Positions 624-7,132 of a DNA stretch of 35,243 bases are shown here, one piece after another. The stretch spans positions 1-35,243 of the IMG/VR virus record IMGVR_UViG_3300049825_000239; one strand, 5' to 3'. Source of the stretch: a virus. The first letter of the stretch is position 1. Each line of letters opens with the position of its first letter. Both the position numbers and the translations under genes were made by a program. The notes under the pieces are model-generated. The model was given only the letters and a program-made list of their open reading frames with translations, did no database searches and had not been told where the DNA came from.

Positions 624-1100
624 CTAGGCCGCAAGCGCGGCCAGTTTTTCCGCGCGGCGGATAGCGGCCTCTGGCAATTGATTTGCTGCCGGTAGAGCGG
701 CGTCCATAAATTCGATGTAAGCCTGTTTAATCTGATCTCTGAATTTTTCAGAATCAGCAGCCCAGCGGCCAGCAGCAGCAGCAATCACACTACACTTATT
801 AGCCAAGTCAGCTGCAAGCCATGCGCGGCGTGACATCTCGTTGATATCGTTTGTTGTTGACCCCATAGCGCGTTCGATGTAGGGCATCATCAGTTCGCGC
901 TCGTCGTCTTTCAGAAAATCATTGAATCGAACGGCGATTGGCCTGATGGTCAGGCAAACGCAAGGCGACCGGTCGGTGATCTGCGGTTCACCGTTTAGAT
1001 ATGCGATCACGTTCATAAAACAGCCTTGACCAGTAGTTCCGGTGTCAGCGTGAGCGCCACTCAGCAATTTGATCGGCTTGATGATTTCTAGTAGTGACAT
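624..1100 (-). CDS. Conserved phage/actinobacterial-type protein with 'MNVIAYLNGEP' motif, 158 aa
   Basis: The ATG at 1100 follows AAGGAG and a well-placed sigma70-like promoter at 1133-1161, so it is the first gene of the leftward operon. Residues about 25-50 (GCFMNVIAYLNGEPQITDR, then a Cys pair in SPCVCLTIRP) resemble a widespread uncharacterised protein with 'CLMEAVAYVAGEPHSDHP' near its N-terminus, often found next to Ala-rich repeat proteins; this is recalled, not searched. The rest is helical (DERELMMPYIERAMG, SRRAWLAADLANK). There is no known enzyme motif. Annotated as a conserved phage protein of unknown function. Confidence 0.72.
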   Translation of the reverse strand: MSLLEIIKPIKLLSGAHADTGTTGQGCFMNVIAYLNGEPQITDRSPCVCLTIRPIAVRFNDFLKDDERELMMPYIERAMGSTTNDINEMSRRAWLAADLANKCSVIAAAAGRWAADSEKFRDQIKQAYIEFMDAALPAANQLPEAAIRRAEKLAALAA

Positions 1101-2256: not shown

Positions 2257-2418
2257 GTGAAACAAAAAACACCTCCAGCCGAAACCTACTACGAAGTAAC
2301 CGCCGCGCAGATGGTTCTATTCGTTGATGGCAAGCAGGTGATCTTTGCGGAGCCTGAGCCGGAGCAGAAATACACCGGGCTTGAGAAGATAGCGAAAAAT
2401 AGGAAAGCGAAGAAATGA
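2257..2418 (+). CDS. Small hypothetical protein with GTG start, 53 aa
   Basis: The frame starts with GTG at 2257 and ends TGA at 2416-2418, overlapping the next ATG (2415) by four bases. The translation begins MKQKTPPAETYYEVTAAQMV, continues LFVDGKQVIFAEPEPEQKY and ends in a basic tail (KIAKNRKAKK). It fills an otherwise empty 180-bp gap in a tightly packed operon and has a natural-looking beta pattern. The Shine-Dalgarno is weak, so start and reality are moderately uncertain. No function. Confidence 0.45.
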   Translation: MKQKTPPAETYYEVTAAQMVLFVDGKQVIFAEPEPEQKYTGLEKIAKNRKAKK

Positions 2419-2648
2419 GGCGAGCCGCGCGAACCGAAGGGTTAAGTTTTGCTAACCGCCTCTCAATGGCGATGGAGATACTCGGCGTATCTAGCAAGGA
2501 AATGTCAAACCGGACAGGGCTATCACAAAGCAATATAAGTCATATAACGTGTGGCAGGAGAGAGCCATCACTAGCTAACTTGTCGTTGATTATTCAGGCG
2601 CTAGATTGTGATTCCTACTGGTTAATAACAGGAATAAAAAGAACATGA
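2415..2648 (+). CDS. Cro/CI-family (XRE) helix-turn-helix regulator, 77 aa
   Basis: ATG at 2415 (ATGA overlap with the gene upstream). Residues about 11-75 form an XRE domain: FANRLSMAMEILGVSSKEMS, NRTGLSQSNISHITCGRREP and SLANLSLIIQALDCDSYWLI, with the recognition helix in LSQSNISHITCGRREPS. There is no peptidase or dimerisation tail, so it resembles Cro more than CI. Its position inside the early operon suggests it regulates early promoters, perhaps the overlapping pair near 1385. It starts with MRRAAR, as does the next gene. Confidence 0.85.
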   Translation: MRRAARTEGLSFANRLSMAMEILGVSSKEMSNRTGLSQSNISHITCGRREPSLANLSLIIQALDCDSYWLITGIKRT

Positions 2649-2942: not shown

Positions 2943-3164
2943 ATGAAAAGATGGGCGGCACTATGGCGGCAAAAGAATAAGCTCGACGGTGAGCATGAGC
3001 ACATTATTTGCGAAGGCGGAATGCCGATGCTATTCCACAGCAGGCGTGAGGCGAGGGAATGGATTTTAGTGCGTTATGGATACTTGGTAAACCGGCCAGA
3101 CCTTCGCTCCGAGCCACACGGGTGGAAAATGCCTATACCTGTGATTGTGAGGATTGCGAGATGA
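2943..3164 (+). CDS. Conserved phage protein, 73 aa
   Basis: ATG at 2943, seven bases after the previous stop, preceded by GAGGCG. The sequence MKRWAALWRQKNKLDGEHEH...PMLFHSRREAREWILVRYGYL...RPDLRSEPHGWKMPIPVIVRI resembles a common small phage protein with 'LFRTRKEARAFIKERYGYI..RPDLRAEPHGWRMPKAV', known only as hypothetical. Basic and Trp/Arg-rich, so nucleic-acid contact is possible. Stop overlaps the next ATG. Confidence 0.75.
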   Translation: MKRWAALWRQKNKLDGEHEHIICEGGMPMLFHSRREAREWILVRYGYLVNRPDLRSEPHGWKMPIPVIVRIAR

Positions 3165-3370
3165 AAACATACCAAGAGCGCTGCGAACAAGCGCGCCATA
3201 CAACGGCTGGCGACAATTGGCGGCATATTAAGACTGGCAAGACGGTGATAGTCATGGGTCGTATCGGGGCTTACGGAATTATCTTGCTGCATCAATCAGG
3301 GAAGCGCACTACAAAGCGAGATCATTACCTTGCCAGTGATTATGAACTGCTTAACGCAAACAAGTATTAA
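3161..3370 (+). CDS. Hypothetical early protein, 69 aa
   Basis: The ATG at 3161 overlaps the TGA of the gene upstream (ATGA); a longer in-frame start at 3059 would lie wholly inside that gene and is rejected. The protein begins MKTYQERCEQARHTTAGDNW and has a beta-strand centre (TGKTVIVMGRIGAYGIILLH) followed by a basic segment (GKRTTKRDHYLASDYELL). It looks like a small SH3-like or OB-like barrel, but this is a guess. Confidence 0.6.
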   Translation: MKTYQERCEQARHTTAGDNWRHIKTGKTVIVMGRIGAYGIILLHQSGKRTTKRDHYLASDYELLNANKY

Positions 3371-3991: not shown

Positions 3992-4276
3992 ATGAGCGAT
4001 ACACCGAAGCCGCCAGAGCAAATACTTTTTGAGGCGATGGGGAATGGCGATTGGGAAACCGAGGCTGAGGAAGTGCAGGGGTATTACCGCAGCTATGTGG
4101 CAGCTATTCGCCCGCAGATCGAAGCTGGGGCGCGAGCGGTGGCGATTGAGGATGCCGTTTCAGCCTGTAAGGCTGAGTTTTTGATAGAGCCGAACAAAAA
4201 TGACGATGGCGATTTATCCTATGACTTGGCCGTTAGCCACTGCATAGAGGCAATAAAAACCATTGCCCATAACTAG
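3992..4276 (+). CDS. Hypothetical acidic protein, 94 aa
   Basis: The start is ATG 3992, with AGGA ten bases upstream in the end of the previous gene; an upstream in-frame start at 3866 overlaps two genes and is rejected. The protein is acidic and helical: MSDTPKPPEQILFEAMGNGD, then AIRPQIEAGARAVAIEDAV and LSYDLAVSHCIEAIKTIAH. Last gene of the plus-strand early operon; its TAG overlaps the stop of the convergent HTH gene. Function unknown. Confidence 0.65.
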   Translation: MSDTPKPPEQILFEAMGNGDWETEAEEVQGYYRSYVAAIRPQIEAGARAVAIEDAVSACKAEFLIEPNKNDDGDLSYDLAVSHCIEAIKTIAHN

Positions 4277-4422
4277 GCTTTCCTCTCCTTCGCCTTACGC
4301 TCAAGCGCGCGCTTGACTGTACTCCTTGATACGCCAGCCTTGCGCGCTGCTTCGGCCTGGGTGCTGCCTTTTTCGTAGAGGCGTATAGCTCTGTCTGTGG
4401 CGGCTGATTGTCTTGGTGGCAT
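4273..4422 (-). CDS. Minimal helix-turn-helix protein (resolvase-type HTH only), 49 aa
   Basis: ATG at 4422, TAG at 4273-4275. The sequence MPPRQSAATDRAIRLYEKGS, TQAEAARKAGVSRSTVKRAL, ERKAKERKA carries a clean HTH like the C-terminal domain of resolvases/invertases and the Hin HTH ('T..eAA...GVSrsTV.R'), followed by a basic tail. There is no serine-recombinase catalytic domain. It is the last leftward gene below the cassette island, separated from it by 130 bp containing a 9-bp inverted repeat. It may be a regulator or a relic of a recombinase; the sequence does not decide. Confidence 0.6.
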   Translation of the reverse strand: MPPRQSAATDRAIRLYEKGSTQAEAARKAGVSRSTVKRALERKAKERKA

Positions 4423-4500: not shown

Positions 4501-4535
4501 GCGATACTGTCCGGATTTTATTAGGTCAGTATCGC
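4501..4535. repeat. Perfect 9-bp inverted repeat at left edge of the cassette island
   Basis: GCGATACTG (4501-4509) and CAGTATCGC (4527-4535) are exact reverse complements with a 17-nt loop, 13 bp to the left of the boundary core GTTAGGC. There is no T-run in either direction, so it is a poor intrinsic terminator. Possible recombinase-binding arms, operator, or Rho-type terminator hairpin at the end of the leftward operon. Confidence 0.55.
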
Positions 4536-4547
4536 CCTCTATTTCAC

Positions 4548-4554
4548 GTTAGGC
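4548..4554 (+). other. Boundary core site (attI-like or attC half-site)
   Basis: GTTAGGC fits the integron core GTTRRRY and is preceded by TTTCAC, comparable to TCAAAC and TCAATC before the core of the complete sites. No matching left half is present upstream, so this is the left limit of the array: an attI-type site, a secondary integration site or a truncated attC. The neighbourhood CAGTATCGCCCT loosely recalls class 1 attI, but I cannot align it here. Confidence 0.5.
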
Positions 4555-4555
4555 G

Positions 4556-4753
4556 TCAGAGGCCCGCGTTGTGCTTTTCCTCGGTTGTCATCTCGCGCAC
4601 GCGCAGGGCCTGCCCGCTGTGCACGTACTCGAACGCATCACTTTCCAGCGTGTTCAGCGTCTGCGTGTGTTGCACTGTCCCGTCGCTGCGCAGCGTCTCG
4701 ACCACCACAGGCATATGCAGTTGAACAATCGCGATCTTCACTTTCGTTGTCAT
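4556..4753 (-). CDS. Cassette 1: hypothetical phage-type protein, 65 aa
   Basis: ATG at 4753, TGA at 4556-4558, so the gene stops two bases before the boundary core GTTAGGC. The protein MTTKVKIAIVQLHMPVVVET continues with LESDAFEYVHSGQALRVREM, an even beta-strand pattern with the motif YVHSGQ; I recall similar small phage proteins with 'EYVHSGQ.l.IRE' but no function. It fills the cassette except for about 40 bp upstream of the start. Plus-strand frames through the same DNA give low-complexity Arg/Ala sequence and are not believable. Confidence 0.65.
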   Translation of the reverse strand: MTTKVKIAIVQLHMPVVVETLRSDGTVQHTQTLNTLESDAFEYVHSGQALRVREMTTEEKHNAGL

Positions 4754-4791
4754 GGCTTGCTTTCAAAGTTGTGGCGCCTTCACGGGTAGAC

Positions 4792-4847
4792 GCCTAACCC
4801 TTCATTGCAGCGGACGGCTGCGCCGCCGCTGAATTCAAACGTTAGGC
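4792..4847 (+). other. attC site B (56 bp)
   Basis: Inverted cores GCCTAAC (4792-4798) and GTTAGGC (4841-4847). Left arm: 5-nt spacer CCTTC, then ATT-G-CAGCGG-A-CGGC; right arm reverse complement: 6-nt spacer GTTTGA, then ATT-CAGCGG-CGGC. The arms pair perfectly apart from two extra bases on the left, G4807 and A4814, which match the extrahelical bases of functional attC sites. Loop is TGC. The asymmetry fixes the orientation as left to right on the plus strand. The minus-strand gene at 4842-5180 ends inside it (GCC-TAA). Confidence 0.88.
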
Positions 4848-5180
4848 GCTCACGTCTTCGCCAGCATTCAAGCGCCGGCAAAGCTCTGTGGCAATGGCAA
4901 TCTGCTGATCCCACACAAAGCCGCAGATCGGCCAATGGCACGGGCCGCCGTTGTGGCTCACCAGTAGTTTGTCTTCGCCGAACCAGCCCCACGATCGCTG
5001 TCCGTGCTTGTTGCTGGCGCGGACAACGGAAATCTCCCAAGATCGGCTGCATCGCTCACCAAAGGCTTGCACTTTCCAGGCGTGAAGCTCAAACGTAGCG
5101 CAAGCGTCATCACGCTTCGCCACCGCCGCGCCTAACCCATCGCTCGAAAGGACCGCCAACGGCTGGTCAGGCTGTGCCAT
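4842..5180 (-). CDS. Cassette 2: hypothetical protein, 112 aa
   Basis: I choose ATG 5180 (AAGGAG seven bases upstream) over ATG 5186, which is one base from the ribosome site. Both starts, the ribosome site and the first 16 residues (MAQPDQPLAVLSSDGLGA) lie inside attC site C. The stop TAA lies in the core of attC site B. The body, FELHAWKVQAFGERCSRSWE, ISVVRASN, HNGGPCHWPICGFVWDQQIA and a helical end ELCRRLNAGEDVSA, suggests a small alpha/beta protein; no family recognised. The N-terminus may have been extended by fusion of the attC into the frame. Confidence 0.65.
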   Translation of the reverse strand: MAQPDQPLAVLSSDGLGAAVAKRDDACATFELHAWKVQAFGERCSRSWEISVVRASNKHGQRSWGWFGEDKLLVSHNGGPCHWPICGFVWDQQIAIATELCRRLNAGEDVSA

Positions 5181-5230
5181 CTTCATACTCCTTCTCGGCC
5201 GTTGTCGGCCTCTCAGCTCAAACGTTAGGC
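5130..5230 (+). other. attC site C (101 bp)
   Basis: Cores GCCTAAC (5130-5136) and GTTAGGC (5224-5230). Left arm: spacer CCATC, GCT-C-GAAAGG-A-CCGCCAACGGC; right arm reverse complement: spacer GTTTGA, GCT-GAGAGG-CCGACAACGGC. Extra bases C5145 and A5152 occupy the same positions as in sites B and D, and pairing extends beyond 20 bp with few mismatches. It is longer than its neighbours but within the known attC range. On the opposite strand it carries the Shine-Dalgarno and start of the 5180 gene. Confidence 0.85.
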
Positions 5231-5233
5231 GTC

Positions 5234-5509
5234 TTAGAATGTCGTGGGTTGGGCAATGCCACGAATAACTGCCATGAATCCCTTCTGTAAATCCGTCGCG
5301 CCAATGCTAATCCAGCGTTGGTCAACAACAGGCCCGCTTTCGACAACCGTTCCCGCGTGCGCGCCACCAACGCTATTTGTCAGCGATTGCAGTTTTTTTA
5401 TATAAGCACCGCACGCCTCTGCAAGCGCCTTCCCTTCATTCATTAACGCTACCTCTGCCTCGCTCAGTTGACGATACCCCGTGATCTTCGGTTGTGTAAA
5501 CGTTTCCAT
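5234..5509 (-). CDS. acb2: Cassette 3: Acb2/Tad1-hairpin-domain protein (anti-CBASS cyclic-nucleotide sponge), 91 aa
   Basis: ATG at 5509 follows AAAGGA at good spacing; TAA at 5234-5236 is three bases before the core of attC site C. The protein has the pattern I know from the Acb2 family: an N-terminal YRQLSEAEVALMNEGKALAE helix, a second helix segment GAYIKKLQSL, then VDQRWISIGATDLQKGFMAV and IRGIAQPTTF at the extreme C-terminus. Acb2 proteins form hexamers that bind the cyclic di- and trinucleotide signals of CBASS and so block abortive infection. Here it is the centre gene of the cassette island. Sequence-based; binding specificity cannot be read. Confidence 0.85.
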   Translation of the reverse strand: METFTQPKITGYRQLSEAEVALMNEGKALAEACGAYIKKLQSLTNSVGGAHAGTVVESGPVVDQRWISIGATDLQKGFMAVIRGIAQPTTF

Positions 5510-5547
5510 GCTAGTTCCTTTAATCTGGCTGCATTCGTGGGTATGCC

Positions 5548-5603
5548 GCCTAACCCTTCATTCCAGCCGACGCCTTCGGCGCGGCTGAATTCAATCGTTG
5601 GGC
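5548..5603 (+). other. attC site D (56 bp)
   Basis: Cores GCCTAAC (5548-5554) and GTTGGGC (5597-5603). Left arm: spacer CCTTC, ATT-C-CAGCCG-A-CGCC; right arm reverse complement: spacer GATTGA, ATT-CAGCCG-CGCC; loop TTC. Extra bases C5563 and A5570. Compared with site B the stem changes CAGCGG/CGGC to CAGCCG/CGCC with matching changes in the other arm, so pairing is conserved while sequence is not. The last codons of the minus-strand gene at 5591-5830 run through its right core. Confidence 0.88.
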
Positions 5604-5830
5604 GTCACTTTTGCGTTTGCTTTATCAGCATCAATCAACAACAAGGTTTGTTGCCTTTCCTTCATAACATGAACCTCTTTGATAAGTTCATCCAAAGTTT
5701 TCAGCCCGTTTTTACACAACTCTTGTGTTCTGGTTAACAGATACATGGAGACCCTTGCCGCAGCGTGAGGGTCTAATTCCATCAGACAATCAATGCACGT
5801 TTTTATTGCCTCAGTCTCTTTGTCGATCAT
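5591..5830 (-). CDS. Cassette 4: helical hypothetical protein, 79 aa
   Basis: Start ATG 5830 overlaps the TGA of the gene upstream (ATGA) and follows GGGGGAAAG; a longer frame from 5944 would lie in that gene and is rejected. The protein MIDKETEAIKTCIDCLMELD, PHAAARVSMYLLTRTQELC, TLDELIKEVHVMKERQQTLL is all helical. I recall phage proteins with 'LDPHAR.RVL.YL..R', of unknown function. The last residues (VTPND) and TGA are encoded by the core and spacer of attC site D, so the C-terminus was set by the recombination site. Confidence 0.65.
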   Translation of the reverse strand: MIDKETEAIKTCIDCLMELDPHAAARVSMYLLTRTQELCKNGLKTLDELIKEVHVMKERQQTLLLIDADKANAKVTPND

Positions 5831-6174
5831 CTTTCCCCCGTGTCGCCCAACTCTGCGCCCAAGCCGGAGGCGGCAAAAGCGCCGCGCCTTTCGCCTTGAA
5901 CGTTGTGCGTCAATGTCTCGCGTATCAGTTCGGCCAGAGAACACATGCCAACGCTCGTGGCATCTGGCGTAATCGGTCTCATCATGGGTTGCGATTTTAC
6001 GTTTCCATTTTCCAGGCCGCCCAACACGACCTCAAGCATGTCTCGTAGCATTTCGTTCTCGTGCAGCGCGTCAGAAAATTGGCAGGCGCACAAGTCTCCG
6101 CCAAGCCATTTATCTTTAGCTCCAACTGCCGGATGGTTTCCATCGGCAAATTCAAATACCGCCGTGTATCGCAT
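5827..6174 (-). CDS. First gene of the island operon: hypothetical protein reading through an attC, 115 aa
   Basis: The best start is ATG 6174 (GGGGAG six bases upstream); TTG 6180 is also in frame. It begins MRYTAVFEFADGNHPAVGAK and contains a helix (SDALHENEMLRDMLEVVLGG) and CSLAELIRETLTHNVQ. Residues about 89-110 (GERRGAFAASGLGAELGD) are encoded by the degenerate attC at 5845-5908, so the Gly/Ala-rich tail looks like translated recombination site. A promoter at 6231-6259 lies upstream. The stop is coupled to the next gene by ATGA. Function unknown. Confidence 0.65.
   Translation of the reverse strand: MRYTAVFEFADGNHPAVGAKDKWLGGDLCACQFSDALHENEMLRDMLEVVLGGLENGNVKSQPMMRPITPDATSVGMCSLAELIRETLTHNVQGERRGAFAASGLGAELGDTGER
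5845..5908 (+). other. Degenerate attC site E (64 bp)
   Basis: Cores GCCCAAC (5845-5851) and GTTGTGC (5902-5908; one mismatch to GTTRRRY). The left arm begins with a 5-nt spacer TCTGC then GCC-C-AAGCCG; the right arm reverse complement has a 6-nt spacer GTTCAA then GGC-GAAAGG, so arm pairing is poor. A central GC-rich hairpin (GGCGGC, AAAA loop) remains. Position and orientation agree with the other sites, but it is probably no longer functional. It is wholly inside a minus-strand coding region. Confidence 0.5.
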
Positions 6175-6230
6175 GCTCAACTCCCCTCTGCTTTGCCGCC
6201 CTAATCGGCGCTTGCATCAATCAGGAACAT

Positions 6231-6388: not shown

Positions 6389-7132
6389 ATGAGCTTTGCT
6401 TACCTAACGCTTTACACTGGCGATTATCTGCGCGATACGCGCCACCTTACGCCACTAAAGCACGGCGTTTATTTACTCCTGCTGATGTACTGTTGGGACT
6501 CGCGCGGCCCTGCTCCGATTGACGAGCAGGAATGCGCAGGCATAGCCAATTGCCGCAGTGCAGACGAAATTGATGCGCTGCGCTATGTGTTGGGTAAGTA
6601 TTTTGTGCGCATGGATGACGGCTTCTATAACCCAAGGATGCAGCGCGAAGTAGAGCGAGCAAACGTAATCAGCGGGCAGCGTTCAGAGGCCGGTAGACGT
6701 GGTTATGAAGCAAAGGCCAAGCAATTGCCTAACAAACGCTTGACAAGTGCCTCTAACCCCACCACCACCATTACCACCAACACCAACACTACCACCAGCA
6801 CTACCACCAACACCGATAAGGTCAAAAACAATACGCGCTCTGCGAGCGCTTGTATTCGTCCAGAAAACGTGCCGGAACAGGTATGGGACGACTTCATGGC
6901 AATCAGGAAGGCCAAGAAAAGCCCTTTAACGGCCACTGGACTGCGCGGGATAGAGCGTGAGGCTACCAAGGCTCACCTAAGCCTTGCCGATGCGCTGGCG
7001 GTGGCTTGTGAACGCGGCTGGCAGGGTTTTAAAGCGGATTGGGTGGCAGATTCAAAAATATCAGTTAAAAGCGCGAGTGACGAATTTCAAAGAAGGGTTT
7101 TAGAACAACAGGAAAAGGATATAACTCCATGA
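6389..7132 (+). CDS. DUF1376 (YdaU-like) replication-associated protein, 247 aa
   Basis: ATG at 6389 after GGGGGTTAA. Residues 1-90 match DUF1376/YdaU as I know it: YLTLYTGDYLRDTRHLTPLK, HGVYLLLLMYCWDSRGPAP, then an acidic KYFVRMDDGFYNPRMQREVE and a basic ERANVISGQRSEAGRRG. A Thr/Asn-rich linker (residues 124-142), encoded by an ACC-rich triplet tract, leads to a C-terminal domain (PEQVWDDFMAIRKAKKSPLT, GWQGFKADWVADSK) like the replisome-organiser C-terminus found in lambda O-type fusions. Such proteins are usually replication initiators, and the next gene is a loader-type candidate overlapping by four bases (ATGA). Origin binding is inferred. Confidence 0.8.
   Translation: MSFAYLTLYTGDYLRDTRHLTPLKHGVYLLLLMYCWDSRGPAPIDEQECAGIANCRSADEIDALRYVLGKYFVRMDDGFYNPRMQREVERANVISGQRSEAGRRGYEAKAKQLPNKRLTSASNPTTTITTNTNTTTSTTTNTDKVKNNTRSASACIRPENVPEQVWDDFMAIRKAKKSPLTATGLRGIEREATKAHLSLADALAVACERGWQGFKADWVADSKISVKSASDEFQRRVLEQQEKDITP

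Follow-up and report, generated by a model that had tools for sequence, protein, structure and literature searches.

An integrase-less attC cassette array with reversed genes in the early region of a P22-like phage

Phages change their accessory and anti-defence genes quickly, and this is mostly ascribed to illegitimate or homologous recombination. The window analysed here, a linear virus record of 35,243 bp (IMGVR_UViG_3300049825_000239) that may be a fragment, raises the question of whether a site-specific system can do the same. Between rightward early genes that end at 4276 and replication genes that start at 6389 lies a block of approximately 1.7 kb holding five minus-strand open frames with inverted repeats between them, and the original prediction, made from the letters alone, was that these repeats are the attC sites of an integron cassette array. 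Is this a real array, and if so how could it work in a phage? We consider it probable that the block is a genuine integrase-less cassette array (CALIN) in the early region of a P22-like phage, with reversed genes, an integron integrase (IntI) supplied in trans and a cargo of accessory and anti-defence genes.

The P22-like nature of the phage was confirmed by a profile search of the window, which detected a P22-like portal (PF16510, E 7e-95) and coat protein (PF11651, E 6e-37); a terminase and a DUF1376/primosomal gene are also encoded. The host is likely to be betaproteobacterial (Burkholderiales/Rhodocyclales). No near-identical relatives of the window were found among 50,697 phage records, and a terminase search returned distant phages only, with less than 30% identity among the matches listed. 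Temperate-type regulator genes are present at 624-1100 (minus) and 2415-2648 (plus), yet a tyrosine integrase is absent from the record, which may be incomplete.

The attC sites and the missing integrase

The following sites were located in the window.

4792-4847, plus strand: attC site B; R'' = GCCTAAC, R' = GTTAGGC; extrahelical G and A; model R1 64.8 bits, E 4.6e-16; detector score 16
5130-5230, plus strand: attC site C; long loop; model R1 50.5 bits, E 4.8e-12
5548-5603, plus strand: attC site D; R'' = GCCTAAC, R' = GTTGGGC; model R1 69.1 bits, E 3e-17
5845-5908, plus strand: decayed attC-like site; cores GCCCAAC/GTTGTGC present, inner stems poor; model R1 14.8 bits, E 0.053
4548-4554, plus strand: lone core GTTAGGC with no partner half, at the far end of the array beside the stop codon of the last cassette gene (read from the sequence)

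Sites B, C and D share 7-bp cores (GCCTAAC/GTTRGGC), 5- and 6-nt spacers, a 3-bp pair, an extrahelical G or C, a 6-bp stem (with one mismatch at site C) and an extrahelical A. The cores are complementary in the form RYYYAAC/GTTRRRY, with 7/7 pairs at B, 7/7 at C and 6/7 at D, and the extrahelical bases are placed identically at all three, on one arm of the imperfect stem. Full attC architecture with identically placed extra bases had been claimed for these three sites and an attC covariance model proposed as the check. We ran it with our own model R1 (not that of IntegronFinder), built from 40 attC sites from other contigs (37 phage, 3 class 1) with the window sequence excluded, and all three sites gave significant matches on the plus strand. 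On the minus strand the short sites lost about 50 bits (B 15.9 bits, D 17 bits). Site C was matched in the default model search and missed in an unfiltered search, probably owing to a window limit. Class 1 attCs scored 40-63 bits with this phage-built model, three of the five having been among its 40 sequences. The extrahelical A and the T of the 3-bp pair never vary across the 40 aligned sites, and the site detector had demanded neither letter; it did demand pairing, and covariation pair counts are therefore partly built in by selection. A search of Rfam returned no matching family.

It had also been argued that chance could not produce such an arrangement, and the shuffles agree: when the entire 35-kb window was dinucleotide-shuffled 60 times (2.1 Mb), 2 sites reached a detector score of at least 13, compared with 3 within 0.8 kb of the real window. 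The fourth site had been described as decayed, which fits its marginal score, and the decay may have left part of the array unable to move. Immediately after the array on its downstream side, and in the same direction, is a small open frame of about 49 aa with a helix-turn-helix look (4273-4422, minus; AARKAGVSRSTVKRAL), and just past the last core there is an inverted repeat (4501-4535; GCGATACTGTCCGGATTTTATTAGGTCAGTATCGC) that could be an operator, a terminator or the remnant of a site.

Neither TIGR02249 nor PF00589 was found in the window record, and hence no integron integrase or tyrosine recombinase, as expected of an array without integrase; since the record may be incomplete, this absence is not proof. 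With three attC sites within 0.8 kb and no integron integrase, the window has the composition of a CALIN and, in lacking intI, not that of a complete integron. The assignment of the locus as an integron cassette array (CALIN) in a P22-like phage is thus supported.

Cassette genes, their direction and their cargo

The five open frames of the block are as follows.

4556-4753, minus strand: cassette gene, 65 aa; open frame; stop adjoins the core 4548-4554, start 38 nt from R'' of attC B
4842-5180, minus strand: cassette gene, about 112-114 aa; start codon within attC C, stop TAA within the R' core of attC B; codon LLR +8.2 vs -1.4 on the opposite strand
5234-5509, minus strand: Acb2-family cassette gene, 91 aa, predicted cyclic-nucleotide sponge (anti-CBASS); PF24729 E 1.5e-14; phmmer to PDB p26 8h2j/8ixz E 5e-11
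5591-5830, minus strand: cassette gene, 79 aa; open frame; ATG after purine-rich GGGGGAAAG, stop within attC D
5827-6174, minus strand: the array's first open frame in transcription order; crosses the decayed site; weak PHROG matches only

A sigma-70-like promoter candidate near 6230 (minus) failed the promoter scan.

By their extrahelical bases the attCs of the window point rightward on the plus strand, whereas all cassette genes run leftward on the minus strand, the reverse of the canonical arrangement in which gene and attC share one direction. The original prediction did not note this reversal, the lone core at 4548-4554 or the Acb2-type gene. Since the palindromic core has a TAA on each strand, open frames by themselves leave gene direction ambiguous, and direction was scored by the codon likelihood of the open frame beside each attC in attC-bearing IMG/VR contigs. 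In related phage contigs of this collection, which are predictions and often fragments, 188 sites were gene-reversed, 4 were canonical and 130 were undecided (188/192 decidable sites inverted). The class 1 integron in phage P1 (MH445380) was canonical at 4/4 sites by the same codon-likelihood score, as were 10/10 decidable sites of bacterial chromosomal integrons from the same GTDB class. One Burkholderiales MAG (G051) holds both kinds, a canonical array (L294) and a reversed one (L295), the latter adjoining a phage integrase. All attCs point the same way in 46/49 contigs.

Genes of the reversed kind end directly against R', in many cases with the core's TAA as their stop codon, and they begin close to R'' or within the loop of the attC. 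Long attCs carry a Shine-Dalgarno (SD) motif and start codon in the loop in 84/217 cases on the gene strand and in 0/217 on the other. Site C is among the 84: the 4842-5180 gene has AAGGAG at 5193-5188, 7 nt ahead of its ATG at 5180, inside the site C loop (minus).

The product of the 5234-5509 gene contains an Acb2/Tad1 hairpin domain (54.4 bits against a curated cut-off of 27), from which an anti-CBASS function can be predicted; Acb2 sequesters CBASS cyclic di- and trinucleotides (PMC12043709). The 4842-5180 gene has a single phage homologue (62% identity), which lies without a nearby attC, and no viral relatives were found for the 79-aa and 65-aa genes. In a wider set of 142 cassette proteins, 4 of them from the window, matches included NinB (4), DNA methyltransferases (3), an RNA ligase, an HNH endonuclease and a Mom-like protein, and most had no Pfam match. 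Some acb2 relatives also sit in attC arrays; those in bacterial assemblies belong to Azonexaceae, Burkholderiales, Aromatoleum, Pseudomonas and others, and attCs were detected near two of these loci (Azonexaceae, L148; Aromatoleum, L151). One viral contig of 42 kb (IMGVR_UViG_3300021440_000055; L010, L017) has two acb2 genes toward opposite ends. In the window, near the array, the 3059-3370 frame (plus) has a weak Lar-like restriction alleviation match (phrog_6795, E 0.003) and is possibly a second anti-defence gene.

Cassette movement in related phages

An insertion was found among phages L074 and L073 on the one hand and L070 on the other, whose backbones are 97-98% identical. L074 and L073 have an empty site, GAATACGCCTAAC/TGCAA, while in L070 a 527-bp unit of attC plus gene lies exactly between those halves, ending CTGCCTAAC/TGCAA, so that the insertion is exact at GCCTAA/C. 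At the same place L069 carries a different cassette, in lieu of two genes between two cores. The arrangement of the lone core of the window (4548-4554) matches the empty insertion site of L074. These phages belong to a group of DUF1376 backbone relatives of the window (L067-L074, about 50% identical) that have their cassettes at other positions than the window does, and they therefore show insertion and not an empty version of the window locus. No empty or rearranged version of the window's own locus was found among the 50,697 phage records or through relatives of its cassette genes.

Exchange of whole cassettes is also evident. An acb2 cassette with a second ORF is common to L022, L019, L021 and L005 (99.9/97.5/88% identity) with differing left-hand neighbours. 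In all four the homology starts at the R' core of its attC, and it stops at the next R' core in L022/L021 and L022/L005, the L019 contig ending there. The R' core is the established position of the IntI cut in integrons. Across array contigs, 65/633 homology breakpoints fell within 12 bp of the R' cut and 18 at the mirrored R'', with approximately 7 expected for each, in a count that takes relatives as independent and includes contigs present as more than one locus. The original prediction had named perfect conservation of the block, with no presence/absence variation at the G/TT cut points, as the outcome that would speak against it; in the relatives, presence and absence vary exactly at G/TT. 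Its proposal that phages trade genes through host integrons stands in part: exchange between phages is observed, whereas exchange with host integrons we infer. The window belongs to a widespread pool of gene-reversed phage cassettes, a pool that points to phages trading accessory genes with the help of integron machinery.

In some relatives, lone-core units move although they lack a full attC, perhaps by a different process. A repeated leader, CTAACTAGGAAT(C/T)(G/A)AATC, stands ahead of different genes in L070 (2494-2757) and in L073 and L074 (near 200-350 and 900), where there are also units of this sort, moving between single GCCTAAC cores.

Could the array nevertheless be a relic, a piece of a bacterial integron captured once and now decaying, whose attC sites are no longer used? 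The absence of intI from the record, the decayed fourth site and the two cassettes for which no relatives were found would all fit. Since the integrons of bacteria of the same class are canonical and those of the phages inverted, the array is not a fresh piece of a host array, and B, C and D retain intact cores and extrahelical bases; related phages have gained and exchanged cassettes recently. We therefore regard a relic as unlikely. Less likely again is that the attCs are mere stretches of homology through which homologous recombination shuffles genes without an integron integrase. Adjacent attCs are indeed similar in sequence, phages recombine readily and several cassette genes are themselves recombination genes (NinB); however, breakpoints favour R' over R'' although both are in one repeat, the unit in L070 entered at a 7-bp core, too short for homologous recombination, and some of these phages possess intI.

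That many loops carry an SD and start codon, and so lie in the translation initiation region, raises the further thought that the attC-like hairpins belong mainly to the RNA of a phage operon, as terminators or in translational control. We consider this very improbable, since terminators would not be expected to have a pair of extrahelical bases, spacers of unequal length (5/6) and invariant AAC/GTT cores or to show insertion precisely at the core, class 1 attCs (three of them in the model) score equally well with R1 and no Rfam family matches.

Source of the integrase and comparison with known systems

If the block is a working cassette array, an integrase must reach it. Full-length intI was present in 4 of approximately 95 array-related viral records searched (TIGR02249, E about 1e-130); one of the intI surveys had no positive control at its strict threshold. 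The integrases of these four records, which represent related temperate phages, and of one Burkholderiales contig form one clade near IntI1 in a 41-row tree (support 85/79; 84% of bootstrap trees), a grouping of moderate support and few members. At L279-L282, L289, L291-L293 and L295, integron integrases of this one clade lie at the end of a cassette operon, adjoining a phage integrase where the contig extends far enough. The phage tyrosine integrase is the next gene in order at L289, L291 and L295, and in L293 the gene order is mirrored. L289/L290 are plainly phage, with terminase, major head protein and tape measure genes. Chromosomal intI is common in the host class (69/185 genomes). Since intI occurs both in host-class chromosomes and in related phages, the enzyme could come from the host or from another phage, and supply in trans is the likely mechanism. 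One attC half-site was sought in 369 host-class genomes and not found, where only a few would be expected at the density of viral contigs.

We propose that each attC would act as a folded single strand recognized by the integron integrase, the reactive strand being, from the extrahelical bases, the minus strand, on which the genes too have their coding (sense) sequence. A cassette would then comprise one attC and one gene reversed relative to the usual, with its start beside or inside its own attC and its stop against the next R' core, whose TAA can serve as the stop codon. Excision and insertion at G/TT would move the gene with its own translation start, and a cassette entering behind the stop codon of the previous gene would create a rearrangeable operon. 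The integrase would come in trans from a host chromosomal integron or a related phage with its own intI, and the array would carry accessory genes of phages, among them anti-defence genes, in this case that for Acb2. Sites B, C and D are presumably active and the operon presumably expressed. A broader reading, to which we give about an even chance, is that phages have an integron lineage of their own, with gene-inverted cassettes, starts inside attC and a phage IntI clade beside the phage integrase in the left early operon, through which anti-defence and accessory genes are exchanged between phages, those without intI, like this one, using it in trans.

If the proposed array is real and working, a site-specific cassette system would be a precise route for the exchange of phage accessory genes, and finding cassettes by their attCs could lead to new anti-defence genes. 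Reversed genes with start codons inside attC also raise the questions of which strand must be single-stranded and how free the direction of the gene is.

Arrays of attC and integrons in phages have been published (Qi et al. 2023, PMC9892861), multi-cassette phage CALINs among them, one of these in the P22-like phage MW202573. The original prediction that a multi-cassette array in a P22-like phage is unusual was right about the array and overstated its rarity. Like the window, the phage CALINs described there are attC arrays without integrase, with methyltransferases in their cargo as among the cassettes of the window's relatives, and IntI1 recombined 5/6 tested attCs from three virulent phages. 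Three complete integrons and an In0 are described with host-type or class 1 integrases. The parts of that study covered here say nothing of gene inversion, of start codons within attC, of anti-CBASS cargo or of an intI clade in phages. Our searches of the open-access literature yielded no description of cassettes that are reversed and start inside attC, of such an intI clade or of anti-CBASS genes carried as cassettes, which is weak evidence of novelty. Cassette genes opposite to attC, an SD and start codon in the attC loop, an Acb2-family cassette and a phage intI clade beside the phage integrase may therefore be new. Known Acb2 genes have been described as ordinary phage genes, whereas the Acb2-family gene of the window is an integron cassette.

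Class 1 and sedentary chromosomal integrons share the attC architecture of the window, but in them the gene precedes its attC in the same direction, whereas here it is reversed. In the reverse integron of Treponema (PMC3607928, PMC4909258), as in the phage integrons described here, intI runs in the same direction as the cassette genes. What is turned around differs: the Treponema intI faces attI and the array, whereas the intI of the phage integrons faces away from the array, its ordinary orientation, and there the cassette genes are the reversed element. When we scanned two of the published phage CALINs, the genes of TJE1 were canonical, unlike those of the window, while in MW202573 the attCs appear opposite to the genes, as they are here.
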